Assembly: GCA_001630475.1 (NCBI GenBank)
Contig: KV419413.1
Location: forward strand, 79,429 to 143,428
Source: Sistotremastrum niveocremeum HHB9708
Taxonomy: Eukaryota; Basidiomycota; Agaricomycetes; Sistotremastrales; Sistotremastraceae
Direction: 5' to 3'
Length of the DNA: 64,000 nucleotides
The first letter of the stretch is position 1. The number at the start of each line of letters is the position of its first letter. The notes under the pieces are model-generated. The model searched no databases, was not told the DNA's origin, and saw only the letters and a list, made by a program, of their open reading frames with translations. Shown here in pieces: positions 3,586 to 64,000 of the stretch. The translations under genes and the position numbers were made by a program.

Positions 3586-5358
3586 CTAGCCTCCTAGCGC
3601 GACTTGATGAACGTTCTCTACGAGACACCCAAAAGCATACCTCTCTGTCTCCGTTGCAAAACCTTCCGTGAACGTCAAATTTTGGATCGGAACACCTCGA
3701 TTCTTACGCGCCGCAAGGAACTGACCCATGGATTCCGCTTTGAATTTTGTCCTGGTGCAGTCCAAACTCTCGAGAAGAGGGCAGGGCAGACCAGGCGATA
3801 TCCTAAAAGCCTCCAAAAGCCGTTCAAAATCCTCTTCCCGAGTATGTATGCCGAGATGCACGATATTCGGCCAAAAACTGATCGTTCGAATCAGCTCGGG
3901 CACAGAGGGCAAAATCTGTATATCGAGTTTGATCACGGAGAGGTTGATAAAATATGGAGCAAGCTCCTGGAGTGAAACAATCTCCGGTCGCCCCTTTGCT
4001 TCATACCAGATGTACATGTTACAGATCGACTTTGACGACAAGGAATGCAAGAAGGGTTGGGAGGAGCCGGAAGGCCGAGCGGGGTCAATATTGTATTCGT
4101 GACATTGGAGGATATAAGGGCCGATGAAGTCCTGGAGCGATACTGACGAGTTAAACTCCCAGGTATCGAGGCGCATGTAGGCCGAGGAAGGGACTTGGAG
4201 ATGCCGGATGACATAGTCGACCGGATCCACGTGGCATTCGCTTACAGAGAACATCTTCAGTTTCTCTAATCGCACCACATCGTGGGATCCGATCAGTACG
4301 GGTTCATCGCTGCTCCCCATGACGAAGTATTCCAAACAAGGGAAATCACAGAGAAGATCGAGGACTTCGTCCGGTTGAGCATCGGTGCCGGCGAGAGACA
4401 GATCGATGATGGTGCTTGTATCCATGAATTTGGGGAAAGAGCTTATGTGACTACTGTAGTCCAAAATCTCGAGTCGCGGCATATTGAGACTGACAATAGG
4501 CTCGTCAAAGGAGTCGTAAGAGTCGATTTTGAAACAACTGAGCGTTGTGAATTCGCTGTCGCCGAATTGGTCTGACAAGAAAACATTAAGGGATTTCTCA
4601 ACATGTCGGGGGCTCCAGACCATGCGGAGAAATGAAACTCGGGCGAGGCTTTGACGGAGGGATGATCCGAGACTATCGAGCGCTTCCTTGGACGATGGCA
4701 TATCTTCAATATCAACATCAATCGACAAGGGTAGATTTCGACTACGAGAGAGGAATAAGTTGAAGATGATGGAGGACATGGGAAGAGATATGTCCGTCCA
4801 CAGGGATGGAGATTGGATGGCGATCTTCCTCCATTTTGAACATCTGTCTGACTCGTGAGCTATTTGAGTTAATTCATAGAAGAGACTCACAAGCAAAATG
4901 CCGCGGGGAAAAACATCCCTTTAGGACTAAATCGACCAGAGGGATGGTCTTTGGCGCATCGTGCCAGGATGTCAAGGATGAGTTCATCCGGCAAACGTCC
5001 TATAGGTGTGCACAAATTATGTCGCTCTTTCAGAAATTGGCTAGATTGAGCGAGCCTTCGTTCTAACTCGAGCAAAGCTGGAAGAAACAGGCTCGGTGAG
5101 CTTTGCATTGATGGAGTGGGAGACCGAAATTATTAAGTGATATACCCACTTTGTCGAGTACTACTTAGGCTGCCCGACGAACAGGGTGACGACTCGATCA
5201 GTTGCTCTCGGCTGTCGTGAATCCAGTGTTAGAGACGCCACTGCACAGCAAAAAGCCCGTAATATTATAATTGCCTACATTGCATCTGATACCTTTGACT
5301 CGAACGAACCGCAAAGCCCGGAGAGCTCAGAGACGGTAGGAATGAGGCTCACTAGCAT
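3586..5358 (-). CDS. F-box/leucine-rich protein 1
   Basis: Likely substrate receptor of an SCF ubiquitin ligase, about 515 residues. Exons on the minus strand: exon 1 at 5279-5358 from an ATG, reading PTVSELSGLCGSFESKV; a tiny exon of about 20 nt reading LSSTRQ; the F-box exon down to 4890, with ELERRLAQSS then LCTPIGRLPDELILDIL; an intron at 4844-4889; and one long exon 3586-4843. The phase-2 intron before CSKWRKIAIQSPSLW is shared with the other family members here. The long exon carries irregular leucine-rich segments and ends with the family signature PCPLLESLDCTRT then GQFLAARKNRGVP. No break seen. It is divergent from the GTPase gene at 5924 (565 bp shared upstream region). The F-box call rests on the PIGRLPDELILDIL motif; target unknown. 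Confidence 0.85.
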
Positions 5359-5923
5359 CAACGAACTGGAGCAGATCGCAGACAATCTTCAAGCTGACTT
5401 GTGCCACGTTGTGTTCATATAGCGGCGAAAGAAATGTTTCGAAAGACAAGGAAGTCGGAGAAATCCGTTGACGAGGTTGAACGTTCATCTTGAGCTTCCA
5501 GTCTGAGACTAGGACTCCCTCGCACTCCCTGTCCAGAAGGGCCAAATCTCTTTTCTTCTTGTATCCAACATCTGGCATATGCGTTCGCGACTATGGGATG
5601 TCTGTGCAGGCTTCCTTCGTCAGGTGAAATTCAGTCGCAAATTGATTGTGTAATTTGGACAGTGCGGTTTTAATCTTCTTCTCCGTCTGAGCAGTTCTGT
5701 GCAGGTGCTCAAAAAGCATAAGATTCTAAACTCGCGCTAGGGCTCATGAGTAGCGACTGATGCATGAGTGCGCTGTCGCTGTCGTTGTCGCTGCTGCCGT
5801 GGACGCATGGTCGGCCGATATAGCCGCGTTTTCCGTCTCTCCAATCGCTGCGAGGTCCTCGATCCTCAGAATCGCCAAATTCACTGGCCCTGCACATAAC
5901 ATCTACTTCGTAATCCATTCAAG
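5359..5923. promoter_or_regulatory. Divergent intergenic region, F-box 1 / GTPase
   Basis: 565 bp between two start codons on opposite strands, so it must contain the upstream control sequences of both genes. No specific binding site could be assigned. No transposon ends are visible, in contrast to most intergenic stretches of this window. Confidence 0.45.
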
Positions 5924-10567: not shown

Positions 10568-12332
10568 ATGGCACACCTTCCCAGCGTATCAGGCCATCTT
10601 TCCGAAACCCAGAGCACAGTGGCATTCGAACCGTGAGACATGGTTTCAGTTACTCATCTAAATCGCACTTTTCTGATTGCCGCTCAGCCAACATATCCCA
10701 GGCCACTTCCGTTCTCTTACTGAAGATGCTACATTCAACGTACAAAATAGTAAGTTGATTATTTTCTCTTGAAACGCGTTTGTTCACCTGTGCAAATGTC
10801 TAGCACTGAATGATATCGAAGACACAGCATCTCAGTGTGATTCTTTCTTTGACTATTCTGTTAAACAACGACAGAATTTGTCCGCGCCTGTGGGCCGTCT
10901 GACGAACGAGCTAATCGTACAAATACTCAAGTACTCCTGGCATCACCAATACCCCGACCCTTATCACGGTGAACCGCGTCTCAACAAGATCCCTCCCGCA
11001 TATTCTCTGTCCGTCTCTGTCCAACCTCACCGCGAATGCTTTGACGACTGATTGATTGGATCTAGCTGCACAAGGTGGAGAAATGTGGCCCTCCAGTCTC
11101 CCTGTTTCTGGTGTACGATCTACCTCCCTGCTCCACCGGAGATGTTTCAACTTTTCCAGAGTCGTAGCCAGTCATCCAAATTGGATATCATTGTTTCCAC
11201 TGCCACAATGCCACAAGGCCGAGACGAACTAGTTGTTCTCGCAGAAATCGGAGTTAGCATCCGCAGTGTCGTCACTCGAATCAAATCGTTGGATATAAAT
11301 TGGGGGCGCTGGTGCCCGGGAGATCAGAAGCTAAACCAATTCCTGAAAAAGGAATTTTCAGGGCAGCAGTTCAGCTCCCTCAAGCTGCTTTCCATAACGA
11401 ACGAGCTTTACGATGTGGACTGCCGATCCACTCTAAACACTCCAGTTCTTGAAGACTTCAAATATTATGGAGATCTGAAAGGGATCCCTCGTGCCACCGC
11501 GCCAAATCTCTCCAAACTTCTCCTTCAGGGGACCATGTACAAACCCAAAATCATCCTTGACACGCTCTCCCTCTTCCCTGCTGTGGAGCATTTAACCATC
11601 AGAGACTGTTGCGACTCCGGATACACTCTGAGGAGACCTCAGCATGCCATAGTTTCGTTCGAGCGGCTTCGAAGCCTTGACATTGACGCCCTTCACCTGA
11701 TCGACTTACAATATGTGCTGGAGCATCTGATATACCCTCCTTCAGCAAGTATCATATTCGAGGTCCATCGAAATCCGTCAAAAAAGTCCGAAGTCGAGAA
11801 GTTTCTCGGACCTCGTATGGCTACAGCCACAGAACTCAGAGTGACTCAGGGGTGGATGCATTCTTACTCTCTCGTTTCGAGCCCCGGACAGTCGTTCCAA
11901 GTCAAACACTTCCATGCCGATGGAGATATAGCTTCTCTGCAGAAGCTCGCGGCTTATCCTACAGCGCTTTCCAGACTCGAACTGCGGTTCAAGGAGCTAC
12001 CGCCGGTGAACGAAATGGTTACCACACTGAGGCTGTGGAATCGTATCGCGCACATCTCTATCCAAACAGACGAGGAAGAGGTGAAGAAGCTCTTCATGGC
12101 CCTTCAACATGCGTCTGTTCTTTGCCCTCTCCTGGAGACCATGGATTTTAGAGGATCAAGTTTCTCCTACCCGGAAATGGTCCAGTTTCTTCGCTTTCGC
12201 AAAGATCAGGGGGCTCCACTGCGAGAGCTCACAATCACGAAACAAAATCCCGATGTTCCGATTGAGCTATTTTCAACGTTGGTGGCCAGGGTCTGTCAGT
12301 TGGAACTCCCAGAGCCTTCCCGAACACGTTGA
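10568..12332 (+). CDS. F-box/leucine-rich protein 2
   Basis: Exons: 10568-10632 from an ATG (MAHLPSVSGHLSETQS), 10688-10749, then the F-box exon from 10804. The F-box reads SAPVGRLTNELIVQIL, a slightly degenerate version of the CTPIGRLSDELI core. A phase-2 intron (about 11010-11067) leads to CTRWRNVALQSPCFW. The rest is one long exon of leucine-rich segments, including LDTLSLFPAVEHLTI and LASYPTAL-like LAAYPTALSRLEL, ending in LCPLLETMDFRGS and VQFLRFRKDQGAPLREL. The first three exon joins were checked by hand and are in frame; no break seen. It belongs with genes 3 and 4 to a subgroup marked by YLPAPPEMF after the second conserved intron. Probable SCF substrate receptor; target unknown. Confidence 0.85.
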
Positions 12333-12923: not shown

Positions 12924-14607
12924 ATGATGAATCCCAATCCCACAAATGAAGAGATGAGCGACATTCAACATGGTGAGAGCATTTCGGCGTGTCATGAAAG
13001 TCAGGACTCTGATCAGTTCCCCCATTTCCAGCGTTACTTGACGTAGAAACCACCATCTCCGACTATCTTCCTCCACTTTCCACTTTCTTGAAACAGCAGC
13101 GTAACATGTGCGCACCAATCGGACGCTTGTCCGATGAACTCGTGATAGAGGTCCTTCACTATTCCCTATACGACATTCGTAATTGGGCAGGATGGTATCC
13201 GGGAACGAGAGTGATTCCACCGGCCTTCTATTTGTCAGTCCGCCTTCTCTGTGTTCTCAATCTTGGATAACAACCTGACGCTCAAAACTCAGATGCACTC
13301 GCTGGAGAAATATCACACTCCATTGCGCCTCCTTGTGGGAAACAGTCTACCTCCCCGCTCCTCCTGACATGTTCGAGGCCTTCAAAAGACGGGGAGGACT
13401 ACGTACGCTACGCGTCATTGTCACCACCGTATGCATGACTGGCGAAATGGAAGAAGAAGCCCCGGTTCTAGACCAACTCAGCAACAACCTACGCGACCTT
13501 GCCCCTCGAATATCAGAATTGTTCATCACTTGGGAGGAATATACCCCCGAAGATGTAGATTTGAACGATTTCCTCGAGTCCGAGTTCAAGAATGTCACCT
13601 TTAGCAGCCTGAAAGCGCTGCATATCACAGACTACCGCCATAGAGGGGAGCCTTCCTTCACTTTGGATACCCCGATACTACGGGAGCTAGAGTTCTACGG
13701 ATCACCAGATCCTCTCCCTCTCGTATCCCCTGGATGTCTCGTCAAATTGTGCCTTAGCGGGGTCAACTACGAACCCGTGGATATCCTGGATATACTGTCT
13801 CTGTATCCATACCTCGAGCATTTTTCAGTCAGTGATCCTTGTGACTGGGAGGGTTGGGAACATGAGTATAGCATTCAACCGCCAGTGTCGCTCCGAAATC
13901 TCAAGTCTTTCGAGATCAGTCGTTACCCCCTAAACTCTCTCAATCATCTGTTTACATCTCTTGACGTTCCTGCATCAGTACATTGGAAACTAAGCGGTTG
14001 TTCTCACAATGACGAGGGACTCGATTTTGCCAGCTTCCTTGGCCTGCGCATGTCTGCATATGATGGAATTAGGATAGCCGAAAACTCGCACTCCTATTAC
14101 GGGGTTGCCTTCACTCTCATGACCTGTTTAGAGCCTCGGATTGAAATTGGGTATTCGGCGTCGGCATCTCGCAATGACGCCAAACTTCCATCACTCGTCA
14201 GAATAGCCTCGTATCCATGCGATCTCAAGCGCATTGAACTCTTAACGAAATGGCTTCCCGAATCGGAGGAGCTTGTTGAGGCTTTTCGTCGTTGGGCAGG
14301 CATCACTTACATCAAGGGTTGCTCCCCCGAAGCCGATTTTGAGCGGCTCCTGAGCGCTCTCACCACAACACCCGATATCCCATGTCCACTCCTCGAGACC
14401 CTGGATTGTACAGGTATGAAATTGAACGTTCAAAGGATGAAGAAATTCTTCGAGTGCCGAATCGAAGAGGGTGTTCCGGTGCGCCAGCTCATCGTGGATC
14501 CAGGAATTTTAGGTGGTATCGATTTGGTCGAGGAGCTCGCTGGTCTTGTCGAGATTGTTCCTGCCAATGAGGCTGATCTTGAGTCAACGCGCAATCGGAA
14601 GCCCTGA
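12924..14607 (+). CDS. F-box/leucine-rich protein 3
   Basis: Begins with tandem ATGs (12924, 12927) in a short exon reading MMNPNPTNEEMSDIQH. The next exon carries LLDVETTISDYLPPLSTF and the F-box core CAPIGRLSDELVIEVL. The phase-2 intron common to the family follows VIPPAFYL, before CTRWRNITLHCASLW at about 13293. The long last exon is an array of leucine-rich stretches and closes with PCPLLETLDCTGM, MKKFFECRIEEGVP and a short charged tail ending STRNRKP. About 500 residues, no break seen. It lies head-to-tail between genes 2 and 4, its closest relatives in the window, so tandem duplication is likely. The product is probably a cytosolic or nuclear SCF adaptor; no ligand can be inferred. Confidence 0.85.
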
Positions 14608-15370: not shown

Positions 15371-17056
15371 TTTCTTAGGCCTCGACAGTCAACAGACCCT
15401 AATCGACCTTCATCTTCCGAGCGATAGCCTGCGTGATCTACGCGAGTGTGAGTTTGTGCCGCACTACTTTCAGCTCTAGAACGCGTATTTACGTGTCAAA
15501 CCCTTTTCTTAGTGTTGAGTGACATGGATGGCGCGTTATCCCATTGCGACCCATCTATTGGATACTTCATGAAGCAGCAATACAACATGTGTACTCCCCT
15601 GGGGCGTCTGACCGACGAGCTTATTGTGGAAATACTTCAATATTGCTGGCATCATCAATTCGATTACTATCGCCCTTACATACCACGTCTTACGAAAATT
15701 CCTGCTGCGTATTCTCTGTTCGTCCAGATCCTAGCTCTCGATGACAACTTACACACGCCAAACAGGTGCAAGAAATGGAGGGATGTAGCCATTCACGCCC
15801 CGATTCTGTGGTCCACAATCTACTTCCCAGCACCAGCAGAGCTCTTTGAGCTCTTTCGGGATCGCAGCGGGACTGCCCCTCTTGACATCACTATTTCGAC
15901 TGATTCCAGCAACATGCCAGACAACGAGGAAGAAGAAGCAGAAGTGCTCGACAGCATGGGGGATAACATTGTCAGTGCAATCACACGAGTCAGATCTCTC
16001 AAAATCAGTTGGGAAGATTACCGCCCCGCTGATTGGACTCTGAACCAATTTTTACAATATGAATTCGAAGAAGCAGAATTCACCTCGTTCAAGACACTTC
16101 GCATGGAATGCATGATATACGAACTGGATGACGAACCCAGAGCCACATTAGTCACCCCCGTCCTTGAAGAACTTCACTATGGTGGAGACATTCAGTGGAT
16201 GCCTTTTGTGTCCGCAACCAATCTCGTAAAATTGGTTCTTGACGGGACAATGTACCACCCAAAAACCATCTTGGATACCCTCTCCCTGTTTCCTGTGGTC
16301 GAAGATTGCACAATCAGAGACTGCAGTAAACCAAGCTTCAAACTGAAGAAACCCCGTCATCGGAAGGTGTCGCTCAAGCGACTTCGACGATTCGAGTTCG
16401 ACGCTTACCCAGTCCTCGACTTCAAATACCTCCTGGATCATATCGATCACCCCGACACGGCTACGATCAAGCTCGAAGTTCATCGAAACTGGTCCAAACC
16501 GTTGGAAATCGAGGAGTTCCTTGGCCCTCGCATGTCGTCAATTACGGAATTCACAATGAAATGCAAGACGGAAATTCGCTATTCTCTCAGCTCAAGCCCC
16601 GGCTAGGCCTTCGAAGTCCTTCATTATGATTATCACGGAAAGCCCGTGTCTCTTCCTACCCTCGCAGCATATCCCACGACGTTCTCCAGCCTCAAGTTGC
16701 ATTTTAAGACCCTACCACCGGTAGAGGAACTTGTAGCAACCCTAAGGTTGTGGCATTGTATCACCCATATCAGTATACGGACCGATGAATCTGAAGTGGA
16801 TAAACTCTTCGCGGCTCTCGAAGAGCACTCCGATCTTGTCTGTCCTCTCCTCGAGAGCATGGACTTCGAAGATACAACTTTTATCCCTTCGAGACTGGAA
16901 CAGTTCCTTCGTTATCGGGTGTCTCAAGGTGTCCGACTTCGAGAGCTCAAAATCATGAAGCAGAGCCCTGATATTCCTGTCGAGCTATTTTCGACTTTGG
17001 TCGGAAATCTCACTCAATCGGAACCACCCAAGCACTTCTCGAAATTTGGATTTTGA
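15371..17056 (+). pseudogene. F-box/leucine-rich gene 4, single in-frame stop
   Basis: A probable second exon ends at a GTGAGT donor near 15450 (LIDLHLPSDSLRDLRE). The F-box exon reads LSDMDGALSHC, then CTPLGRLTDELIVEIL, followed by the family's phase-2 intron before CKKWRDVAIHAPILW. The long exon is open to a TAG at 16604-16606, then continues in the same frame (AFEVLHYDYHGK, LPTLAAYPTTFSSL) to the natural stop at 17054-17056. It keeps the signature VCPLLESMDFEDT and EQFLRYRVSQGVRLREL. The paralogous gene 2 has CAG (SSPGQSF) where gene 4 has TAG, so one C-to-T change explains the break. All else looks conserved, suggesting a recent loss or a read error. If translated it would lack about a third of the leucine-rich region. 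The 5' start exon was not identified. Confidence 0.8.
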
Positions 17057-17485: not shown

Positions 17486-19323
17486 TTACCCCTGCAAAGG
17501 AACTGACTGAACAAGTTCTACGAGCGTTGAAAATGCGTCTATCTCAGGCTCTGTCTCCGTCCATTGCACCAGGTCTTTTGTGAATCTCAACTCTCGTAAA
17601 GGCACGTTTTGCCTGGTCCGGAATCTGAGAAATTGACCCATTCGCCCTGCGTTGAAACTTGTGCCTGTGCAATCCAAGCTTTCGAGAAGGGGACAGGGTA
17701 CATCTGCTGATGTTTCGAAAGCCTCAAGAAGCCGCTCGAAATCCGCATCCTCAGTACGCATCCCAAGATGAACTATCTTTGACCAGCAATTGATCACGTA
17801 AACCAGCTCGGCTGTTGATGGGAGACTGGCAACACAAAGGTCGATAAGGGACAGGTTCATTGCATAGCGGGCAAGCCTCATGATATCGATGAATTCCGAA
17901 TGCGTTTTGTGCGTAAGAACCATCTGGCGTCCGGACTTGCAGATCAGCTCGTGAGACTGTACGTAACCTCCATACGAATAGTGATCTATGGCGCGGGACA
18001 CGCATTGTCTTTCGGATAGCGTGATGAGCGGACCTAAAAAGTCTTCAAATGCTAACAAGTGTTCGTCCGGATCTGCACAAGTGTCGAGTCGCATGAAAGC
18101 GGATGGAGGAATCTCGAGGTGTTTGACCAAGTAATCCATCTGATCCACATTAAATGAAGCCAAATGTATTTTCTTCACTCTCGGGAGGAAGACTGGAGGG
18201 TGATAATCAGTGATAAGCTGGGGCTCATCATGTTCAGCAGTATCTATCATGCACGTTTCTAGCAATGGTAGCGCTGCAAGAACATCGAGGACTTCGTGAA
18301 GCTCGAACTCACGTCCGCTGAGATTCAATTCGGTGACGGTATTGTCGACGAACGAAGGCACAGAGGGCACAAAGCCGACGAAGTTGAGAGTGAGAAGTTT
18401 CGGCGCGTTGATCTTGGTGATGGGCTCATCGAAGGTGTAGATAGAGTTGATGTGAAGAACCTCGAGGGATGTAAGCTCTCGATGTCCTATGTGCTGTGCG
18501 ATGAACGTGTTCAAAGTCATCACATTTTCGGCGTTAGGAGAGGTCCATAGCAGGGAGAGGCGAGATATTCGGGGGAGGACGGGGCGAAGGGATGAGCCCA
18601 GGCTGTCGAAAGAGAAGTCTTCGTTCTCTAATAACTTGTCAACAACTTGGTCAACAATGTCAACGACGACAGCCAAAGGTACGTTCCCATTGCGACTCAT
18701 GAACAAGTCGAGAAGGTCGGAGGGCATAGGGAGAGATATATTTGACCAGAGGGTTGGCGAGCGGACGGCTATGTTTCTCCATTTCGAGCATCTATAAGGA
18801 CGGTAAATTCGATCAATTCGAGTCGTGAATTCAACAGACTGACAGAGAGAATGGCGCCGGAAGATTTGTTCCTTTCGGACTGTAATGACCAAATAGATGT
18901 TCTTTGGCGCAGTATTCCAATATCTCCAGGATGATCTCGTCCGATAATTTTCCTATCGGTGTACACATGTTCTGCCGCTGTTTGAGCAACTGACTTGATC
19001 GAGCGAGTCTTTGGTCCAATTCATGTAAAACTGCGGTGAAAGCTCTAATTGAGTGCTAATGTCTCGACAAGATGGACGTTAATGAGCGTGCACTCACTCT
19101 CTCGAGTATTGTCGAGACTGACTCCTGATGAAAAGGGGTCTACGAGCACCCTCTGGCTATGAGGACTGAGCGTCAGACGAACAAGGTCGCGTTCAAAATT
19201 CGCAAACACTTACAGTTCATCAGACACTCTGGAGTCCAGCTCATCGCAAACGAGGGATAGCTCGGACACGTTCGGAAAGCCTCTACCGCTGAAAGTGGTT
19301 CTGGGCATCTGGCTATAGGTCAT
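17486..19323 (-). CDS. F-box/leucine-rich protein 5
   Basis: Start ATG at 19323: first exon MTYSQMPRTTFSGRG, then NVSELSLVCDELDSRV. A second exon near 19090-19150 reads SQRVLVDPFSSGVSLDNTRE. The F-box exon has ELDQRLARSSQLLKQRQN followed by CTPIGKLSDEIILEIL, and after the conserved phase-2 intron the long exon starts CSKWRNIAVRSPTLW. It ends with PCPLLESLDCTGT, MGQFLRFRTRQNVPLREL and a VQWTETEPEIDAFSTL tail. About 550 residues, no break seen. The closest relative is gene 8, which shares exon structure, the NTRE exon and the VQW-ETE tail. Divergent from gene 6, with the two start codons only about 250 bp apart. Likely SCF receptor; target unknown. Confidence 0.85.
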
Positions 19324-19570: not shown

Positions 19571-21450
19571 ATGACACCCACCACTGGCACCAACAGGTCT
19601 GAGCTCTCAGAGATATTTACTGCTTTTGAAGCCAGAGTATCGAATGTGATGTAAGCCGCCCATCTTCCTCTGTGATGCACGAATTGATGATTTTGTTGCC
19701 TTCGTTGTGGACAGTCAGGAAGAAATGGGGGACCCGCTTTCCTCATGAGAAAGTTTGAGCAATACTCGTCAGAGTACGTAGACTATTTCTCTACCCATTC
19801 CATTATCTCACTCAACCCTTCATTTTACAGCCCTACTCGACTTTGACCGAAGGCTCGCTCGCTCGAGTCAGTTCCTCAAGGAGCGACATAACATGTGTAC
19901 ACCCATAGGACGTCTATCAGATGAGATCATCGTCCATATCATGAAGGAGAGTGATAGCTACCACTATCGTGATAGGGAGAATCCAGATGGTATTGGGTTC
20001 CGTTCTGCCTTCGCTGTGTCAGTCTCGATCTCTGCCATGAAAGATGTGACCTGGACTCTCATATTTGCTCAGATGCTCGAGATGGAGGAATATAGCGATC
20101 AATTCTCCAATATTGTGGACCAGAATCCCTCTGCCGATCACCTCCGATATTTTCAGCTTATTCGTGGAGCGCAGCCGGAACCTGCCCCTGTCGGTCTATA
20201 TCAGAACATCAAACGCTATAGCATTCGAAGGAATGCTGGATATACTCGGCTCCTCTCTTCGACGCATTCTTGCCCGGATTGTCTTTCTCTACATATCATG
20301 GAACCCTGGTTGGGGTAATACTAAAGAGGTCACCCAGTCCCTAAACAACTTTTTGGCGGAACATATAAAGGGAATGGAATTCACATCGCTCACGACCCTC
20401 CACATTGATTCCCATACACTCCACTATGATCCCAATATCGAACTCAACATGCCCGTGCTCAAAAATCTACGATATGATGGTTTACCATATTCTTTCCCTC
20501 GCTTCATCAATACAGATAGCGTCGTCAAGCTCTCTCTCAAAGGGACCCCCATCTGTCATTGGGAACTTCCCGAAATCATCGATGCTTTTTCTCATGTCAA
20601 GTATCTTAATCTCGGGGATATACAACCCCCGGACAATGACGAGGAGATGGACCCTGAAGCGAGCACATGGTTGCCGAAATTGAGGACTCTGCACCTGCAT
20701 ACAGCAAACGTCGGATATCTAGATGAGACAGTCCGATATCTCGATGTTCCTCTGATGGCTTTCATGCACCTCAAGACATGGCACGACCCAGAATCGTCAG
20801 TATCTTTCCAAGATTTCATGAGTCGCTATCTCGTCGAAGCCTACGACTGGAGTGTTGTTACAGTCCCCATAGAACCTCGATCCCCGGCGAGAATCTTCCA
20901 CCACACTGTATTATCTCAGACAAAGTGCGACTTTGACCTGAAGTTTGGTGCAGAGAGCGAGGCAATTATTCCACTCCTCGAACTCGCTCCTTACTCATCC
21001 AACCTCTCCACAATCGACCTCACTGTCCAACATCTGCCTCCTCTCCCCGACCTGATTCAAGCGATCAGTCATTGGTCGAATGTACAGTTTCTTGGAGTAC
21101 ATACGGAAGCCACAGAGTTCGAAAGGCTTCTCGAAGCTTTTTTGACTTTTGAAAGAGATTCACCGCTCCCCTGCCCTCTTCTCGAGACCTTTGACTGCAC
21201 AATGACTAAATTCCAAGGAGAATTAGTGATTCGGCTCCTCGAGGGGCGAAAGGCGCGTGGCGCACCCCTTCAAGAATTGACATACACGAAAGGTTTTCTA
21301 GATCAACCGGAGACAGATGCAAGGGAAAGTTCGTTTTCAGCTCAAGCAAGGGCTCTCGTGGAAAAGGTTGACGAAGTCGATCCCGTCGAGGGGCCTGACC
21401 CTGAAGACTACTGTGCGACAGAAATAGACCGTCGATTGCCATTCATATAA
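19571..21450 (+). pseudogene. F-box/leucine-rich gene 6, probable nonsense codon in exon 2
   Basis: Exon 1 (19571-19650) reads MTPTTGTNRSELSEIFTAF, matching the SELS first exon of relatives. The expected second exon (about 19717-19773) aligns with that of genes 5 and 8: QEEMGDPLSS then a TGA (19746-19748), then ESLSNTRQ. Gene 8 has GGA at that place. The next exon gives LLDFDRRLARSSQF and CTPIGRLSDEIIVHIM. A phase-2 intron precedes CSRWRNIAINSPILW, and the rest is one open exon ending PCPLLETFDCTMT and ARGAPLQEL. Everything after the TGA is well preserved, so either the gene is freshly inactivated, it uses a different second exon, or translation starts at the methionine before CTPIG (19893). 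I call it a probable pseudogene, but a functional short form is possible. Confidence 0.6.
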
Positions 21451-26054: not shown

Positions 26055-28069
26055 TCATAAGGCAACTTGGATACTATAATCCTTCGAAATCTTGACCTCC
26101 TTCAGTGGAACGCCAAGCCGTTTCCTCAAATCAAGAAATTGACAGACTCGGTCCATGTCAGGGTTGATTCCCGTACAATCGATGCTCGTCAATAAGGGGC
26201 ATAGTATCTCCGGACTTTCAAGAGCCTTGAGAAATGCGGGAAAGTCAACTCGTGACGTTGTGATGCGTATGTGAGTGAGGGATGAAGAGGAATGTAGGAA
26301 GGCGGTGAGGTGATCCATGGGAGGAAGTGGATCTAGACAGAGTGCTAGAGTGGAGAGATTGTTGGACTGCTCGGCCAGTCTGGAAAATGAGACTTCTTCG
26401 CGCCAGGATAGGCCAGGGGTGGTCGATTCAGGAAGGCTGTAAGTGATCTTCATTTGACGCCCTAATTTTGATCGCAGAGCAAACTGATAACCATCCTCAT
26501 CGTTCACAACCTCCATCTCATGTGCCCACGATATTTGGGCTTTGAGGAGTTCTTCAAATACTCCCTCTGCGGGCAAAGGTTCATTACCGTGAGTGATTTT
26601 TAATGAGAAAGAGGCCACAACCGGCATTTGCAGTTTTGTGAGAAAATCGTTGGCCGCAGAGAGATAGAGTGTGCCGATCTCGGCGCTCTTCAGCTTGTTA
26701 GCGGAGACAGCGACACAGGTGCCTGTATCTTCCACTTCCTTTGGGTCAGAATCAATTGTGCACTGCTCGAGGTTAGGAAACTTTGAAAGGAGGTTCGAAA
26801 TTTGGCTTGGGGAGTCGATCCAGAAAGTAGAATCATAAACAAGTCTTGTGACAGACTCGGCGGATACGAGGGGCATGAAAGGCAGATACCCGGCGAAACG
26901 GAATTCTTGAAGTCTTGGTGTATTCATGGCAATAAGTGATTTATCGCTCTGTTCGAAGTAATCGGTATCTTCGATCACTATGTCGAGCAACGTGAGCGAA
27001 GGCAATTCTGTTTGGTCAAAGGTATCTTCCAGAAATCGGGTCAATATCCAGGCCCTGCCGGTCCCAGTCTTCCAGATGATCTTCAGTTGGCCAATTCGAG
27101 GAATGACTCGACGAAGAGGAGCGCGCAAGTGATCATCGATTGCAGCGTCGCCCTCGTCCTCCTCGTCCTCGTCCTCCGGTATCTGGGTGTTTGAAACATT
27201 GACGTTTAGGGGTGAGTTTCCACTGCGATGGAGGAAGATATCGAAGAACTCTGGAGTTAAGGGAAGTGAGATGTCGACCCATAAAGATGGAGCGTTGATG
27301 GCCACATTTCTCCACTTTGAACAGCTGTTCCAGATGTTAGTATAGTAATGTCATTTCCAACGGAAAGGAACCCACAGAGTGAAAGCTGGGGGGATCTGAA
27401 TGGCGGAAAAAGAATGGTCCTGCAATCGGTCAAAGTCGCAGTACTGGAGGATCTCCAAGATCACGTCGTCTGTGAGACGGCCTATGGGGGTGCGCCTGTT
27501 GCGCTGTTGCTTTAGAAGGCTAGCGGTTGTCATGAGTCTTGTCTGGATTTGATCGACCGCTGCATCATTAAACGAAATCAGCATTGATCTCATAACTTGG
27601 GCTTACTTACCTCGCTCAGCGGCATCTAACTCATCGTTAGGAAGGTCAGGATTTTCAACGAGGTGTGGTTCGCTACCAGAGGCGGTCAGATAGAATGACA
27701 AAGGATAGATAGGCGGTCTCACATCTTGTCCTCTATCATGGTCTCGAGTTCCGAACATAACTCAGACAGATTGGGTTGGGTTTGCGGCTCTGTTATGCTC
27801 TCTGGTGACATTGGACGTTTTGGATCATACTGAGCGCTGTCTGAAGTATGACGCTCATCGACGGTGTGTTCACTGGCACCATCGGAATCAAAGTCGAGTC
27901 TTCGACGTTTTGTGCTTTGTCGGCGCCGCATACGCCGCATAGAAGATGGTCGAGGGATCTCTAGATCAGACTCATCGGAATCCGAGCTAATATGGACCAT
28001 TTTCTCTGATGACGGCCTTTTGATGGTGAGCTTGAGTCCAATTCTGGCGGAAGCAGGCCTGGGGCCCAT
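26055..28069 (-). CDS. F-box/leucine-rich protein 7 with nuclear-type N-terminal extension
   Basis: I chose the ATG at 28069; the frame is open further upstream but has no ATG there. The first exon (down to about 27719) is longer than in relatives: an acidic/serine stretch SSDSDESDLEIP, a strongly basic run MRRMRRRQSTKRRRLDF (likely nuclear signal), then NLSELCSELETMIEDKM, which matches the usual family exon 1. A tiny exon encodes ELDAAER. The F-box exon reads LKQQRNRRTPIGRLTDDVILEIL, with arginine replacing the usual M-C before TPIGRL. After the phase-2 intron comes CSKWRNVAINAPSLW, an acidic run EDEDEEDEGD, and leucine-rich segments ending LCPLLTSIDCTGI and CQFLDLRKRLGVPLKEV. No break seen. 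The extension suggests a nuclear substrate receptor, by inference only. Confidence 0.83.
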
Positions 28070-30316: not shown

Positions 30317-31498
30317 ATTTGGCTTTGTATAGAATATTGAGGTCGTAGATACCTGCAAGTGCGACTTATGCGCATCTATGGATATAGAAAGGACAGAGAC
30401 ACAAGGCACAATAAATAAAATATGATTAACAATAATAAACTCACTTATCTCCACCCATCCCTTGGTCTACTCTTCACATAATGCGGCTGATCCACAGGAT
30501 TGACTTGTATAAGCCCTTCGACTATGTCTTCCAATCCGAAGATTTCGCTTATATCGATACGGTCCCATGTCCCAAATACACCGAGTCGTACCACACTACT
30601 CTCGGTGAGATGACCAACTTGCGTAAACCCTTGCGTCACAATGACTTCTCTCATCTTCACTCCTTTGTCTTTCCTGAATAATAAAAACTGCTTCATTCGA
30701 GCCATATCAATTATGGTTCCTGAGCAATCTAATCTCTCCAACCTCGGGCAGATGATCTCGTCTTCAACTCGACTTCTGCCTTCATCTTGAGGTGAGCGCA
30801 CAGACACTGGTCTGTTCTCGAGAGCGCTGAGAACTTTCTCGACCTCGGGCTCCTGAATGGTCACTTTAAGACACGTAAGAAGCTTCCAGGATGATAGGGC
30901 ACGTCGCAGTGAAGGTAGCGAAGGCAGTTCGAAGGAATCAATGGAGAGGGATATAAGATTCGCCGAGTATGATGCGATGACAGGGAGCGAGAGGGAGGTC
31001 AGGGGAGTGGACGTGTGGTCGTCCGCTAGATATCCGACCCTCACTATCCCATCTTTGATGACAGAGTCTGGCCCATTGGATACCAAATCAGAGGTTAATG
31101 ACGAGGTTTTCGGGAAGAGCCTGAATAGAAGTCCGTCTCGTTTGTGGTCTGGAAAAATCATAAGTCTCTCGGCACTCGCGAGCCAAGGACTCAAAAATCT
31201 TTCGAAGGGCCCAGTCACATCTGGATCTGTATCGGAAGGAGGTGGCGCGGGGGAACTATGGAGAACTCCAAGCGATAGATTCGCAGATCGTGGAATAATG
31301 AGTTGAGCAAGAAACGCATTCATGCCCTCCACATCATACAGCCCGATGCTCATCTTTTTGAGGTTCTTCAAGGAAATCACGGGACGAGGTGGGGAGATAG
31401 TTTGATGGTCCTCGGATTCATGGTCTATGATGACGATATTTTCAATCAGAGGAAACTCGGCCAGAATATCGATGAGCATCTCGAGTGGGACATAGGAC

Positions 31499-31948: not shown

Positions 31949-31971
31949 CACCCCCTCGAGACGAGGATTCC

Positions 31972-45892: not shown

Positions 45893-47644
45893 TCAGATGT
45901 TCAGACTCTGCGCAGAATCGACTTCAGAGACCCTGTCTAGCAAGTATCTCAATCCATCTAGACCCGAAGTCGAATATCCCTTCGAGGCCCTGAGCTCCTC
46001 AAGACGAACACCTTTCTGCTGTCGGAACTCTAGGAATCTCTTCATTCGCACACTGCTGAATCTCGTCCCCACACAGTCGATGGTCCTTAGCAGAGGACAC
46101 ACGATGTCCGACGTTTCCTCGAGGGCCGTCAAGAGTCTCTCGAAGTCGAGTTCCTGGGTACATACACGAATGCATGTGATGCTGCACCAGATGGTCAGGG
46201 CTTGAATTAGGTCAGCGAGGGAGGGCAAATTCCGGAATTGAATGTCGAGAACAGAGAGCTGCTTCGCGCGAGAAGCGAGTAGAGGCAATTCTCTGATTTC
46301 TGTGAATGACATCCGAGAGGGAGCGTAGTTAACGCTGACTGCACCTCGCAATTTGGACCTGGCGGAATATTTGATCTTCCTGGAGTCTCCATCAATCGTC
46401 AGTTGCACGGACTCTGAGAGACAGAGGCCCAGAAGGTCATGGAGTGAGTGATCCGCGAGCGTGTCCTCGCAAGTTCCTAAAGATAGAACAGCAGAAGGAG
46501 GGACTTCGAGATGTCTTAGTAAAATGTGCATGGCGGATGTCGTGAGCACATCAACGGAGAGCACTTGCAGTTTGTCGAGCAAAATCACGGGATGATCTAC
46601 GTGGATGCGATCATCAGGATCGGCTTCATGATTGATGATGGCACATTTCTCCAGGAGGGGAAAATCTCCGAGAAGGCTCAAAATCTCATGGATCGGAAGT
46701 AGACACCAATTAAATTCGACCTGAGTCAAATGGTTGAATGCCCGGGGAATGCGATGAGCGGGTCCGCAGAAATACATGGCACGAAGCAGCGGCGCGTTCA
46801 TGTTCAACCCAAGAGCAGGGCCATCAAAGACCGCGGCGTCGGACAACCGTAATACTTTGAGCGCACTGAACTCTTTCCATGCCAAATCAGTGGATAATAG
46901 AACTTCCAGAAGAGGGGAGTCCTCGCTCGGCTCTACGTGCCAGGTGATATCCAGATGTACGATACGGGGGATGATCTGACGAAGAGCTTCTCCGAGAAAT
47001 CCCATGTTGATGGCAGAGGCGCTCTCGATGTTGGCAACATATGTCTTCAGGAGGAGATTGTCGCTTCGATCACGGACCAGTCTGAAAAGATTTGGAGAAC
47101 ATGGCAATACGACTCTGGACCACAACGACGGAGTATGGATCGCGATTTGCCTCCATCGCGTGCACCTGTTGGAGTGAGAACAGGAATCTACGAGTAGACA
47201 AGGACTCACAGGGAGTATGCTGGGAAAATGTGGGGGTTTCCCGTGATTAAGTTTGGGTGCTGAGCCTCGATTCCGTATTGCAATATCGCTGTGATCAGTT
47301 CGTCTGGTAACCTGCCCAACGGTGTGCAGAGATTATGCTGCTCTTTCAGCACACGTGCAATATTTCGTTGAGCCACAGCAAGATCTTGATAACGTGCTCT
47401 TCATCAGCACTTCGACTCTGAACGAATGGGACAGCCCCGCAATGAAGACTCACCTCCTTGTAAAATCTCCAGCTCTGGGCTCGGGTCATTCAGATTGACC
47501 CTTTGACTATCACAGAGGCTCTGGTTAGTAATAAATACAAGAGTCGGCCTCGTCCAATGCTTACATCACCTCTATCGCTTTCGTTTCGAAGCTGGAGCAG
47601 AGTTCGGATAACGCTTTCGACAGTTTTGAGGGAGTCGCCTTCAT
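45893..47644 (-). CDS. F-box/leucine-rich protein 10
   Basis: Start ATG at 47644: short first exon MKATPSKLSKALSEL then CSSFETKAIE with the GTGATG donor. The F-box exon (about 47390-47215) has ARVLKEQHN and LCTPLGRLPDELITAIL, ending FPAYSL. After the family intron the long exon begins CTRWRQIAIHTPSLW and has LPCSPNLFRLVRDRS, the mark of the subgroup with genes 12 and 14. It ends FERLLTALEETSDIVCPLL, RTIDCVGT, MKRFLEFRQQKGVRLEEL and DSAQSLNI. About 500 residues, no break seen. A Harbinger element is inserted 217 bp upstream of the start codon, which may alter its promoter. Likely SCF receptor; target unknown. Confidence 0.85.
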
Positions 47645-49850: not shown

Positions 49851-49884
49851 GTAGACTCGGTAGCAAGATGTATTACAGCACAAG

Positions 49885-52837: not shown

Positions 52838-52918
52838 ACACGCAATCACTTTTCGGCTACTGCAACGGATTTAAGGAGCTAACTCCATACCGCAAGCTCT
52901 CTATTGCTCCGGATGCCT

Positions 52919-54682
52919 CTATCCTGAAGATTGAAGCACGACCACACAATCCGAGGCAATCCTCAATTCGCCGAGAGGAGCACACATCTGCTTTCGAAGG
53001 GCGAGAAAGGGTGCGATCCGAGTGCTACAGACTTTGGTACCTGTGCAATCGAGGGTCTTGAGAAGCGGGCAGATCAGCTCTGGGACATTTTCGAGAGCCG
53101 CCAATAATTTCTCAAAATTAGATTCGTCGGTTTGGACACGGAGGGAGGATATGAGGGGCCAAGAATTGAGAGACCGGATTAGATCGTGTGTAGATGGAAG
53201 TGAATCGGTCTGGAGATGGATATGCGATAGATTGGAGGGATATGAGGCAAGTGTTGGGAGATTAAGAGCGGTAAGTTTGAGGGCCGCAGGGTCCGACCAG
53301 GCAAAAGGAATCACGTTCAAGTGCGTGATTTCAATTTGACGTCCGGTCTTTGAAGTCAAAGTATAGACAGCCTGGTCGTCGCGTTTCACAATCTTGAATT
53401 CGTCGCTCGTGGACATATATGGGCCGAGGAAATCCGCAAGCGCGACCGCTCCGGGATCCGCTTTGTAGATCTTTGCAGATATGCTTAAAGAGTCTGGACA
53501 ACCGAGACGGACAATCGTGTCCCGAAGTTGAGACAGGTATATGATACTCAAGGAAAACCTTTTTAGGTTCTTCAATGAGAGGTTGGGAATGCCTGAAGCA
53601 ACGGCGCTAGTCAGGGGATGACCAATGACGTCACACTGTTCAATCGAAGGAAAGTGTGATAGCATCTTGAACAGGGTTGTAAACGATAATGTGTTCCCGT
53701 TTGTGTTCCATCGCAGAGTTGTGAGACTCTCAACGGGAGACGAAGGGGCAAACTGAAAGGGTCCGGCCAGGACTAACGTTCTAAGCTGCGGGGTGTTAAG
53801 AGTATAGATCTCTTCCTTTCGTCCCCAGGAGGCACTGGTAGCTCGAATATGAAGCGTCTTCAGGGTACTAAATTCTGCTTCCCCGGCATATTGCACCAAG
53901 AAGTCGCCAAGTCCTCGAGTGTGCTTGGACTCCCAATCAAGGTGCAGTTGGGAGATCCGAGGAATGACTTGTCGAAGAGCATTCCCAGCTGTGCCAATAG
54001 TTGGATCTCTATCGCTCAATATCTCTTTATTAGTGACGTGGACGTGGATCTGGAGAGCAGACTGCTTGCTGCGCTCAAGGAAGAGAGCGAATAGATTCGC
54101 TGGCATGGGGAGCGATATCTCGGACCACAAGCAGGAGGCGTTGGTCGCAACGGCTCGCCACCTTGTACATCTGTGTTCCCATGTAATGAGCAACTAGATA
54201 CTGGATACGACACAAACTGACATGCTCACAATAAGTATGCATGAGGAATCCTGACACCTTTTCGGGAAGATTTGGATAAATCGTCATCCACCAATGACTT
54301 GCAGTACCGAAGAATCTCCACGATCAACTCATCGGTCAAGCGTCCAATCGGCGTACATATGTTCAGTTGTCGTTTGACTGCAAAGTTGGCGCGGATCAGC
54401 CTCTGCTCCGTTTCGAGCAAGTCTAATGGAAAATCATCCTTCAATTTGTCTGTCTCAGAAAAAAAACGATTATACTCACGGCGGCGGACACTCTCTGTTG
54501 TATTACCTGGGTGGTGTGGATCCAGATTCATAAGTCGTTCAGGACTATCCAGGCGAATCTTTGAGCATTGAGCTTCATTTAAGAGAAACCGTATACCCTC
54601 CGGTCGTGACCTCGGCTTCGAGGTCTGAACAGAGAGCAGAGAGCTCTACTGCTGTCGATTTCGCAGTAGCTTCGGTTTCCAT
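52919..54682 (-). CDS. F-box/leucine-rich protein 11
   Basis: I chose the ATG at 54682 (METEATAKSTAVELSALC, SDLEAEVT); the frame is open upstream but without ATG. The F-box exon (about 54500-54226) has LETEQRLIRANFAVKRQLN and CTPIGRLTDELIVEIL. The following exon begins CTRWRAVATNASCLW and SLPMPANLFALFLERS. Leucine-rich segments follow, such as LPTLASYPSNLSHIHL and FEKLLAALENVPELICPLL, then KTLDCTGTKVCSTRIAPFL and MCAPLGELRIAS. About 520 residues, no break seen. Somewhat diverged from all other members. Divergent from the DUF6535 gene at 54971, with 288 bp between the start codons. Likely SCF receptor; target unknown. Confidence 0.83.
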
Positions 54683-57375: not shown

Positions 57376-59165
57376 TCAAGTCTCAGTTGAGTTATCAACT
57401 TGGTGCTCCACAGGATCGGATTGAACAATTGTCGTCGTCGCCGACGAGAGGAGTTCATCCAGTCCACAATGCGCAAATCCACGAGTAAATTTGAGAGTTT
57501 GAATGCATACGCCTTTCTTCTCTCGGAAATCCAAAAACTGCTTCATCCGTAGGCTGCTGAACCTGGTTCCGGTGCAATCCAAAATTCTCAGAAGCGGACA
57601 AAGGACAGTCGGAGTATCTTCGAGAGCGGTCAAAAGTCTTTCGAATCCAAGTTCTTCCGTACAGACGCGAATGTGAGCGATTTTCGACCAGGCAGTGAAC
57701 GCGAGGATGATATCGCCCAAGGAGGGCAAAATCGAATACCGGATGTCAAGGAGAGAGATGTTGGTAGAATATGATGAGAGTGTTGGGAATGAGTGAATTT
57801 CCTCAGGTGGCCCGTCATGGAAACCATATGCATGAGCTACTGAGATAGGCCCTCTCGACTGGTAAGTCATGGAGAAAATGATATTATACTCGTCATTGCT
57901 GATCTTCAGTTCGTTGGATTCCATAAGATAAAGACCCAAAAACTCGTAGAGCTCGTCATCGTCACGTTCATCTAAAAAGGTCCCTAGCGTCAAGCTAGCA
58001 GACACGGGCAGCGTAAGATGCTTGAGTATGATCTGCATCTCGGAGACGAGAACAAAGTCGATGACGAGGCTTTCAAGTTGGTCAAGGTAACGAGTTCGTG
58101 GTCATCTTCGTCATCTCCATAGCACTCCGTGTTCGTGATGGAACAGGTCTTCAATTGCGGGTAGTATGAAAGAAAGTCGAGAATTTCGTTGATTTCGAGT
58201 CGAAACCCTCCTTTGATTACAAGGTGGACGAGAGACACGATAGGTCGGGGAATGATTCTAGGGACGCCTTTGAATCTCATAGTAGAAAGTGCCGGCATAT
58301 TCAAAACGATGGGCCTGCGTTGAGGGTCCTCTTCAAAGGCGTCCATCACATCTAGAGTCTGCAAAACGCTGAACTCCTTGTGCCCCATGTGATCAGATAG
58401 AAAATCTTCCAGCCTCGGTATATCATGCTGAGTTGCGACTTTCGACCAGCGAACCTGCAGCTGACGTATCCGCGGTGCAAGCTGGCGCAAGGATTCTCCG
58501 AGTAGCGTGGTGTTCAGCACGCCGCAACCAGAGTTACTGCGAAGACAAACATGCACAGAATTATTTCTGCCGCGATCTCGAATGAGCCGAAACAGATGTT
58601 GAGGGCACGGTAGAGGGATTCTGTACCACAAAGACGGAGAATTGATGGCTACGTTTCTCCATTTTGTGCAGCTAGGAAATGTGGGAGAGAGTGAGATGAT
58701 CATAGTGCTTGAGCCCTGAAAACTTACATGGAGTAAGTTGGAAATAGTGGGAAACCTTTGGTAAGAAAAGAATGTCCACAACCTGGGTCTATCCCGTATT
58801 GCAGAATCTCCCTGATGAGCTCGTCGGACAGCCGGCCGATCGGGGTACAGAAATTATGTTTGAGCTTCATAGAGCGCTCGATTTTGTCCTTCATCAAAGA
58901 GAATCCTTTAGGCATGCATCACCCGGGTTAGGAGGGTAGGTGGCATAATGTTTCACTCACTATTTTCCAAGTTCAGCATCTCCTCACTCAGACTCGCCGC
59001 ATTAGTGAGTTGACGCTGGCTAGATGAATCAAGATCATTGAGAAATGATGGGGAACGAGTTATGAATCGCTTCGCTCACATTGAATCTGCTGCCCTCGAC
59101 TCAAATCCCGCACAAAGCTCAGAAAGCTCCCTCGACAACTCGGAGTCGACTTGACTCCCGCTCAT
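57376..59165 (-). pseudogene. F-box/leucine-rich gene 12, single frameshift
   Basis: ATG at 59165 begins MSGSQVDSELSRELSELC. The F-box exon (about 58915-58732) reads MKLKHNFCTPIGRLSDELIR and EILQYG. After the family intron come CTKWRNVAINSPSLW and IPLPCPQHLFRLIRDRGRN. The frame runs to DDEDDHELVTL (about 58085), after which the family text continues in another frame: LESLVIDFVLVSEMQIIL and on to VLCPLLRILDCTGT, MKQFLDFREKKGVCI and VDNSTET. Gene 14 has VSLDRLQSFEIDM at the break, so one missing base near 58085-58090 explains it. This may be a true loss or a sequencing error. Otherwise conserved; same subgroup as genes 10 and 14. Confidence 0.8.
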
Positions 59166-59463: not shown

Positions 59464-59755
59464 TTACACGCATAGATCGTCTATATCAATAAGCACATTA
59501 TCCAGCCTTCCAGCTCCGAGACTCCGGCCGGCATAGAAAGAGTCAGGCAGGACTCGAGTTATTACGAGAAGAGACTGGAGTTCCCGGGCGCGAATTTTCG
59601 GCAGAGTCCTCAACCTCCACAGGATCCAAATTGAATAATTGTCGTTGACGTCGTCGAGATGAGTCATCTACACAGAATGTGCAAACCCACGAGTGGATTT
59701 CAGGGTATGGATGCACAAGCCTTTCTTCTCTCGGAAATCCAAGAATTGCTGCATC
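59250..59755. repeat. Duplicated segment, copy 1 (partner 62430-62935)
   Basis: About 500 bp aligned by eye with 62430-62935 in the same orientation, clearly similar but with many substitutions and small gaps. It includes the 3' flank and C-terminal codons of an F-box gene. Confidence 0.7.
59464..59755 (-). pseudogene. F-box gene remnant 13 (C-terminal fragment)
   Basis: Short minus-strand remnant matching the last ~90 codons of gene 14: FLDFREKKGL, KSTRGFAHS-like codons, QLFNLDPVEVEDSAE, NSRPGTPVSS. It stops abruptly near 59755 and runs into unrelated sequence just before the end of DUF6535 gene B. No F-box or upstream exon. It is the coding half of the duplicated segment and must be non-functional. 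Confidence 0.75.
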
Positions 59756-59850
59756 GTCACTTTGTAACGCAAAGCCAGAACGAAAGCAACAAGCCACTGA
59801 AAGCCTCATATCAAAAGCGTAGGACTTGACTGCACCGTCAACAACTCCCA

Positions 59851-62716: not shown

Positions 62717-62935
62717 TCAGGGAGCATTCGAGTCACTGCGAAGAGAGACTGGAGTTCCTGAGCGCGAACTTTCGGCAGAGTCCTCCACCTCAACAGGATC
62801 CAATTGAACAATCGTCGTCGTCGTCGTCGAGATGAGCTCATCTACCCCAGAATGTGCATATCCACGAGTGAATTTCAGCGTCTGTATGCGTGCTCCTTTA
62901 TTCTCTCGAAACTCCAGGAAATTCTTCATCCGTAA
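62430..62935. repeat. Duplicated segment, copy 2 (partner 59250-59755)
   Basis: Same-orientation partner of copy 1. Here the coding half is still attached to a complete-looking F-box gene (14), so this copy is probably the source. Confidence 0.7.
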
Positions 62936-64000
62936 GCTGCTAAACTCTGTCTCTGCACAGTCCAGAATCTTGAGAAGCGGGCAGACGATGTTCGGCGTCT
63001 CTTCGAGAGCGTTCAATAGCCTTTCAAATTCGAGTTCTTGCGTGCTGACGCGAATGTTTTCAATGTCATCCCAGAGGGAGAAGGCTAATATGAGATTGCT
63101 GAGAGAGGGTAAAACCGAATATTCAATGTCGATAAGGGAGAGATCGGATGAATGTGATGCGAGCGTTGGCAACAATGCGATTCCCGGGGGCGGTCCGTCG
63201 TGAGTGCGATGCGTGATCGTGATAGGGCCTCTTGATTTGTATGTCATAGAGTAGATGATATTCTTCTCGTCGCTGGTGATCTTCAGCTCGTCGGCTTTCA
63301 ACAGATAAGGACCGAGAAATCTGTGGAATAAGTGATAATCGGGATCAGGCAGATAGGTTCCCAAAGTCAAGCGAGCAGACGCAGGCAGCGTGAGATGGGC
63401 GAGTAAAATCTCCATTTCGGAGACATGCATCATGTCTATTTCGAAGCTTTGAAGTCGGTCCAAGGATACGATATCGTGGTCATCTTCAAGATCTCCGCAG
63501 GACTCCGTGTTGATGATAGAGCATATTTCCAGTTGAGTGTAATAGGAGAGTAGGTCAAGAATCTCGTTGATCTCAAGCTGGGACCCTCTGAACTCCAGCT
63601 CGATAAGGGAGGGTATGGGGCGAGGAATGGTGCTCGGTAGACCCTCAAAACCCATTATGCGAAGCGCCGGAGTGTTCAAAACGACAGGTTTGCGTGTAGG
63701 ATCTTCGTTGAATGTGTCCGTCAAGTCTATCTCCCGCAGAGCGCTGAACTCCTTTTGGCCCACATGATCAGAAAAGAAGACATCTAAAAATGGCATATTG
63801 GGTTGAGTTTCGAACCAAGCCCATGAAATCCGTAGTTGAGATATCCGTGGAGCGAGTTGGCGCAAGGACTCTCCAAGGGTGACGGTATCCAGCGGGTCGG
63901 GATCAGAGGCATTGACGACGGATACTTGGAGCAAGTTGCTTCTACTGCGGTCGCGGATGAGCCTGAAGAGATTTGGGTGGCATGGCAAAGAGATTCTGGA
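62717..64000 (-). CDS. F-box/leucine-rich protein 14, cut by the window edge
   Basis: Only the long last exon is inside the window; the F-box exon lies to the right of 64000. The visible text runs LPCHPNLFRLIRDRSRSN, LGESLRQLAPRISQLRISW, leucine-rich segments (INEILDLLSYYTQLEI, LPTLASHSSDLSLI), FERLLNALEETPNIVCPLL, KILDCAETEFSSLRMKNF and a tail with a TTTTT run (from a CGT/CGA trinucleotide repeat near 62815) and DPVEVEDSAESSRSGTP. About 425 codons visible, no break. Subgroup of genes 10 and 12. The family assignment is safe although its F-box cannot be seen here. Confidence 0.8.
   Translation of the reverse strand, partial: SRISLPCHPNLFRLIRDRSRSNLLQVSVVNASDPDPLDTVTLGESLRQLAPRISQLRISWAWFETQPNMPFLDVFFSDHVGQKEFSALREIDLTDTFNEDPTRKPVVLNTPALRIMGFEGLPSTIPRPIPSLIELEFRGSQLEINEILDLLSYYTQLEICSIINTESCGDLEDDHDIVSLDRLQSFEIDMMHVSEMEILLAHLTLPASARLTLGTYLPDPDYHLFHRFLGPYLLKADELKITSDEKNIIYSMTYKSRGPITITHRTHDGPPPGIALLPTLASHSSDLSLIDIEYSVLPSLSNLILAFSLWDDIENIRVSTQELEFERLLNALEETPNIVCPLLKILDCAETEFSSLRMKNFLEFRENKGARIQTLKFTRGYAHSGVDELISTTTTTIVQLDPVEVEDSAESSRSGTPVSLRSDSNAP

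Follow-up and report, generated by a model that had tools for sequence, protein, structure and literature searches.

A dense array of divergent F-box genes with leucine-rich tails in Sistotremastrum niveocremeum, probably encoding SCF substrate adaptors

A window of 64,000 nucleotides on contig KV419413.1 of the basidiomycete Sistotremastrum niveocremeum HHB9708 (contig C20 below, window C20:79429-143428; genome 34.7 Mb in 111 contigs) was found to lie within a dense array of one gene family whose members carry an F-box followed by a long leucine-rich tail. The array probably encodes substrate adaptors of SCF (Skp1-cullin-F-box) ubiquitin ligases, in a family that would have grown by duplication and been pruned, with purifying selection relaxed in the middle of the protein; we put the probability of this reading at roughly 0.67. 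A hidden Markov model (HMM) of the long exon, trained on nine open long exons, recovered 13 genes and one remnant on both strands between positions 3,598 and 64,000 of the window, which bears out the number and mixed orientation given in a preliminary description of this DNA. E-values ranged from 2.6e-175 to 2.4e-31 for the gene pieces and the remnant scored 0.008. The members, together with the long terminal repeat (LTR) element inserted in one of them, are listed below in window coordinates.

3586..4842, minus strand: member 1, long (fourth) exon, open (HMM 3598-4842)
about 4890-5360, minus strand: F-box exon and first exon of member 1, from exon profiles
11067..12332, plus strand: member 2, long exon, open (HMM 11067-12317)
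13294..14607, plus strand: member 3, long exon, open (HMM 13294-14574)
15767..17026, plus strand: member 4, long exon in two HMM pieces, broken by an in-frame TAG at 16604-16606
17486..18790, minus strand: member 5, long exon, open (HMM 17498-18790)
20074..21450, plus strand: member 6, long exon, open (HMM 20074-21393)
26055..27323, minus strand: member 7, long exon, open with an early end, truncation equivocal (HMM 26064-27323)
29048..30316, plus strand: member 8, long exon, open (HMM 29048-30310)
30613..34749, minus strand: member 9, long exon split by the LTR element (HMM 34225-34749 and 30613-31494)
31499..34226, minus strand (that of its open reading frame): Copia-type LTR element in member 9, from repeats and Pfam
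45893..47164, minus strand: member 10, long exon, open (HMM 45905-47164)
52919..54169, minus strand: member 11, long exon, open (HMM 52934-54169)
57445..58670, minus strand: member 12, long exon in two HMM pieces, frameshift near 58062-58089
59680..59757, minus strand: remnant of 26 residues, C-terminal block only
62735..64000, minus strand: member 13, long exon, open, leaving the window (HMM 62795-64000) and extending 45 bases past it, to C20:143473

The genome was searched with three different members as queries, and the counts obtained there are lower bounds. The array was found to run past the window to C20:251,549 and, once the fetched pieces were assembled, to hold 34 members across 168.5 kb of C20, which is 2.6 times the length of the window. 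If the genes were evenly spread over the genome, simple arithmetic gives 0.3 members for that stretch. The original observation is confirmed, the array being larger than first described. A further 22 members were found on other contigs, namely six on C6, five on C34, four on C9, three on C52 and single members on C12, C29, C45 and C4. This brings the family to at least 56 members. The start of the long exon was retrieved for 53 of them, those at C45:109451, C4:786087 and C6:140671-142179 being counted from search matches only.

A four-exon pattern runs across the members, and in member 10 (minus strand) the exon boundaries are directly visible. An F-box exon was found upstream of the long exon in all 53 fetched members, at 20.8-92.7 bits with a profile of our own that was built from 21 of the 53 members it scored. 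The phase-2 intron placed before the motif CxxWR in the preliminary description was recovered throughout: a candidate phase-2 GT donor follows the F-box exon in 53 of 53 members, some of these donors being weak (GTCTCC, for example) and all of them sought by a script that considered phase-2 GTs only, and by eye an AG stands immediately ahead of the partial codon that leads into CxxWR, or into the corresponding motif, in the same 53. The remaining exons had been described as common to all members. The first exon was seen above 8 bits in 37 of the 53, lying 388-477 nt upstream in these, with a profile for which 18 of these first-exon peptides had served as seed, and the small exon ending in NTR(E/Q) was seen in some members only and was not counted. 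The long exon is open in 47 of the 53, where open means open over at least 380 residues, a cut-off of our own choice.

Judging from its profile matches, the F-box is real but divergent. The Pfam model PF12937 was matched at E<=0.01 by 21 of 32 F-box segments, hand-picked from the 53, with a best E-value of 1.7e-9; six of the 32 reached about the Pfam gathering score, and the spliced protein of member 10 exceeded the Pfam F-box-like cut-off (25.0 versus 24.3 bits). Together with the F-box exon seen by our own profile, this upholds the earlier assignment to an F-box family. A search of solved structures with the F-box profile returned only 1fs1_A (E 0.9), labelled Cyclin A/CDK2-associated p19, which we take to be the F-box of Skp2. 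A six-frame PF12937 search of the genome placed no match on C20 among the 58 listed (150 of 263 candidates scored) because the intron cuts the F-box, and published F-box counts may miss families like this array.

Beyond the F-box, the long exon has a spacing like that of leucine-rich repeats. LxxLxL-type column patterns numbered 12 compared with 5.8 in shuffles, 34 of 5000 shuffles having as many, and 11 strands, positioned by eye, lie 20-34 residues apart save for one gap of 82 residues. The C-terminal block, shared by all members in the preliminary description, turned out not to be private to the family, since several more distant F-box genes on C5, C10, C22 and C51 align across the block, some of the alignments reaching query residues 390-416. 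A second set of F-box-type genes, more distantly related and likewise clustered, was observed on C5, C10, C22, C24 and C51, and several of its genes can be aligned to the array family along nearly all of the long exon.

F-box proteins attach to Skp1 through the F-box and use their tail to bring a substrate to the cullin-bound E2. One detectable Skp1 match and three cullin loci were found in the genome. As SCF substrate adaptors, the members would consist of a short N-terminus, an F-box split by the phase-2 intron, a leucine-rich solenoid of irregular build with about 11-12 repeats, and the conserved C-terminal block. Through the F-box each member would bind the single detectable Skp1, which would serve all of them as one docking hub, and the leucine-rich middle would pick the protein to be ubiquitinated. 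Rates at the outward positions of the last three repeats were 0.53-0.58, compared with 0.89-1.26 in the others; because these repeats are conserved even at outward positions, a shared contact or a cap is suggested, and they would probably close the solenoid or hold a contact common to the family. Several results weigh against substrate adaptors. PF12937 was not matched at E<=0.01 by 11 of the 32 F-box segments, and Skp1 binding may for that reason have been lost in some members. The long exon had no Pfam domain above cut-off, leucine-rich repeat models included, in scans of ten exons or open reading frames and five spliced proteins from the window. Its matches to solved structures were weak, the best being the leucine-rich repeat protein U2A' (E 0.12) and the next a kinesin-like protein (E 0.6).

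Selection along the long exon was fitted jointly for 13 subclades that comprise 33 of the 47 open exons and 424 columns, and saturated deep branches were thereby left out. The global ratio of nonsynonymous to synonymous rates (omega) was about 0.3, with a best grid value of 0.32. Run along the exon, as had been suggested for this locus, the ratio was 0.19-0.26 in residues 1-40 and 341-420, 0.27-0.45 between these and 0.34 in the last 20 residues. Because constraint differs along the exon, the uniform purifying selection that the preliminary description named as evidence against its proposal is not seen. The conserved ends and variable middle of the preliminary description were recovered as well, mean site rates being 0.47 in the F-box and C-terminal parts versus 1.10 in the middle.

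A variable middle between conserved ends would also be found in diversifying recognition receptors, the function first proposed, and the presence of several broken copies agrees with such receptors too. The leucine-rich middle would then bind variable non-self ligands, such as the alleles of another mycelium, viruses, parasites or transposon proteins, and mark them for ubiquitination, while balancing or positive selection would keep the array large. We consider this unlikely. In a grid of synonymous and nonsynonymous rates the class with dN>dS received zero mixture weight and 0 of 424 columns, and omega was 0.17-0.43, well below 1, in all of the 14 closest pairs. The log-likelihood gain from such a class was 0.00 in the real data compared with 1.4-9.2 (mean 5.3) in data simulated with 5% of sites at an omega of 2.5, null simulations gaining at most 1.4. 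The power of the fit, as seen in simulations on the same trees with ten replicates each, was moderate, and with 2% of sites at 2.5 or 5% of them at 1.5 the mean gains were 1.6 and 1.9, so that such selection would often be missed. Strong positive selection at shared sites is therefore unlikely and was rejected within the power of the test; weak or subclade-specific positive selection may occur. Predicted solvent-facing strand positions, where hypervariability would be looked for, had a mean rate of 0.93 compared with 1.19 for other polar positions (p=0.015), a difference in the opposite direction. The three conserved last strands lower the strand-face mean, the other eight averaging about 1.07. 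With neither dN>dS sites nor hypervariable strand faces, the proposal of diversifying recognition by positive selection was not supported, and birth and death under relaxed purifying selection fits the data at least as well.

Silent sites and flanks were examined for traces of exchange between members. In the closest pair (C52:107162-108400 and C52:143337-144569) the stretch from 400 to 25 nt ahead of the long exon, exons and introns included, is 87-93% identical, compared with 73% and 69% in two windows within the long exon, 125-275 nt from its start, and dS is 0.79 at residues 36-130 versus 0.14-0.19 at the ends. Over ten close pairs the C-terminal part had less silent divergence than the middle (stratified z -4.87), the regions having been picked after viewing the data, and five of the ten pairs, the second-closest included, show nothing alone (p=0.873, 0.773, 0.771, 0.523 and 0.249). 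Both results speak for receptors that diversify, and they are hints of exchanged middles or homogenised ends. On the other side, identity does not fall in the middle of the second-closest pair (C20:142223 and 144426), a silent-codon scan for gene conversion gave 0 of 45 pairs below p=0.05 among pairs at 36% identity or more, and no donor for the divergent C52 middle was found among the 53 long exons compared. Homogenisation of the 3' ends was considered and rejected, there being no clear 3' tract because the 3' flank of the closest pair is 83% identical versus 90% for its 5' part, in a flank comparison that covers 3 of 8 pairs. A bolder version holds that this is an adaptive allorecognition or antiviral locus, in which the leucine-rich middles of the F-box proteins are recombined between conserved ends and every protein delivers its own non-self target for proteasomal degradation. 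We consider this improbable; if true, it would make the locus a ubiquitin-based counterpart of plant resistance-gene clusters.

Long exons are broken in 6 of the 53 fetched members, 3 of the 13 in the window and 3 of the 40 others. The lesions in the window are the stop at 16604-16606, the frameshift near 58062-58089, which could be an assembly error, and the LTR insertion at 31499-34226; the broken copies outside it are C20:244359, C34:202805-204078 and C9:699390. Besides the insertion copy, four broken copies have one visible long-exon lesion each and the C34 copy has two, and a further C6 copy appears in two pieces in search matches only. At least four damaged copies had been claimed for the window, and the stop, the frameshift and the insertion stand. 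The second stop, in member 7, is equivocal: this member ends early at a TGA beyond which nothing is recognisable, and member 11 (52919-54169) ends at nearly the same point of the alignment.

The best dated of the lesions is the Copia-type insertion, which to judge from its repeats is very young. Its LTRs (31499-31948 and 33777-34226) are identical over 450 bp with TG...CA ends, and the 5-bp target repeat AGGAC stands on both flanks. Member 9 covers model positions 1-157 on one side of the element and 157-400 on the other; as the halves meet at position 157, this copy was full-length until recently. The element has a gag-like reading frame of 523 aa (31972-33543) that matches gag and Pol_BBD, and at 2.7 kb it is probably non-autonomous because it leaves little room for a reverse transcriptase.

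Such damage could also mean that the expansion is mostly decaying, its copies being for the most part remains of genomic drift that are not expressed and do little individually. The six broken exons and the relaxed constraint in the middle are consistent with this, and a precedent is found in lineage-specific F-box genes of plants (Hua et al. 2011, PMC3030570). We regard it as improbable, more so than diversifying receptors, in view of the 47 of 53 long exons that are open despite a paralog identity of about 30%, the acceptor sites in place in 53 of 53 and the values of omega, which lie far under 1 in each of the 14 closest pairs. In the substrate-adaptor reading, drift rather than adaptation would set the number of copies.

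The median pairwise identity among the 47 open long exons is 30%, and comparisons within the window gave 28-51%, with 51% between members 4 and 2 and likewise between member 8 and its closest relative, member 5. Values of dS were obtained for the 14 open pairs of highest similarity, where the lowest was 0.33 (the pair on C52) and the others were 0.48 and above. Dated by this divergence, the copies of the array are old. Of the rapid turnover described for the locus, birth and death with recent breakage is supported, and the births are not very recent.

Neighbouring open members on C20 (30 of the 34 used) are more alike than shuffled ones (0.350 versus 0.308, 0 of 5000 shuffles). In the tree the C34 genes form one well-supported branch and so do the C52 genes; the 30 open C20 genes require at least 5 label changes, and movement between contigs has therefore occurred. 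Two nested sets of inverted gene pairs are also apparent. In one (C20:177232-217707) genes at 177 kb (plus) and 214/216 kb (minus) enclose a pair at 181 kb (plus) and 208 kb (minus), and in the other (C20:225283-251549) genes at 225 kb (minus) and 250 kb (plus) enclose a pair at 228 kb (minus) and 248 kb (plus). Read by inspection of the tree, the nested pairs suggest old inverted block duplications. The family would have expanded inside a single region through old duplications of blocks, some in tandem and some inverted, while a small number of copies moved to other places. It would be pruned by stops, frameshifts and the insertion of transposons, under purifying selection that is relaxed in the middle.

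Other features of the window include a Myb/SANT-like reading frame on the plus strand near a DDE_Tnp_4 reading frame on the minus strand (48443-51255), which together resemble a PIF/Harbinger-type DNA transposon. The reading frame at 41647-42336 had no Pfam match and resembles part of a hAT-type transposase. Pfam returned nothing at E<=0.001 for six other reading frames of the window, and Rfam at gathering thresholds had no match in it. Two genes of the DUF6535 family (55628-57163 and 59851-61563) are 48% identical. A link between them and the array was considered and found not to be specific, because at least 151 exon matches to the DUF6535 family occur across the genome, many of them on contigs such as C8, C38, C39 and C41 and three listed on C20. 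The DUF6535 matches at C19:551118-552608 and C91:27394-28884 have identical scores and lengths, and C91, which is a small contig, may represent an alternate haplotype of C19.

Among known systems, proteins of the FBXL type, such as Skp2, Grr1 and the plant proteins TIR1 and COI1, have the F-box N-terminal to leucine-rich repeats. The array proteins share this order, F-box and then leucine-rich-like spacing, but without a leucine-rich repeat Pfam model above cut-off. F-box proteins with leucine-rich repeats are given as 0-1 each in Phanerochaete, Serpula and Laccaria (PMC7991009), and for F-box proteins as a whole the same paper gives 60 for Phanerochaete chrysosporium and 95 for Laccaria bicolor. 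A study based on Pfam models reports hardly any leucine-rich repeat receptors in fungi (PMC2939053). Repeats as divergent as those of the array may escape such model or domain counts.

PF12937 is enriched in Ganoderma australe (PMC8955403), and F-box genes are among the developmental orthogroups of complex multicellular fungi (PMC8893723). The F-box-like (PF12937) proteins of mushroom-forming fungi resemble those of the array in forming large families with an F-box and then a long tail, and differ in that the F-box of the array is split by an intron and divergent; the passages available on them describe no array of such density. Searches of open-access literature brought up no comparably dense fungal F-box array either, which proves little as subscription papers lie mostly outside it. 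Families of this kind may go unnoticed, the F-box being cut by an intron and only 6 of 32 spliced F-boxes reaching roughly the Pfam cut-off.

Fungal NLR and HET genes likewise form large families with a repeat-rich variable part (PMC12881547). The repeats of the array are leucine-rich, a type that according to that review was absent from the fungal NLRs analysed, and Pfam detected no NACHT, NB-ARC or HET domain in the ten exons or reading frames and five spliced proteins of the window. Present models of somatic incompatibility in basidiomycetes are reported to derive from work on ascomycetes (PMC8229728). Were balanced alleles of the leucine-rich middle to be seen among strains, the array would become a candidate locus of basidiomycete non-self recognition.

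In mode of evolution the array is like the FBX genes of plants, a likeness drawn from their published description. Lineage-specific plant F-box genes are described as being under relaxed selection, with numerous pseudogenes and low expression (Hua et al. 2011, PMC3030570), and birth and death, pseudogenes and relaxed purifying selection are the traits held in common. Large F-box families in fungi and plants are known, as is birth and death with relaxed constraint in plants; the array is a further case, well documented, and offers a gene-by-gene record of a fungal F-box family expanding and being pruned in place.

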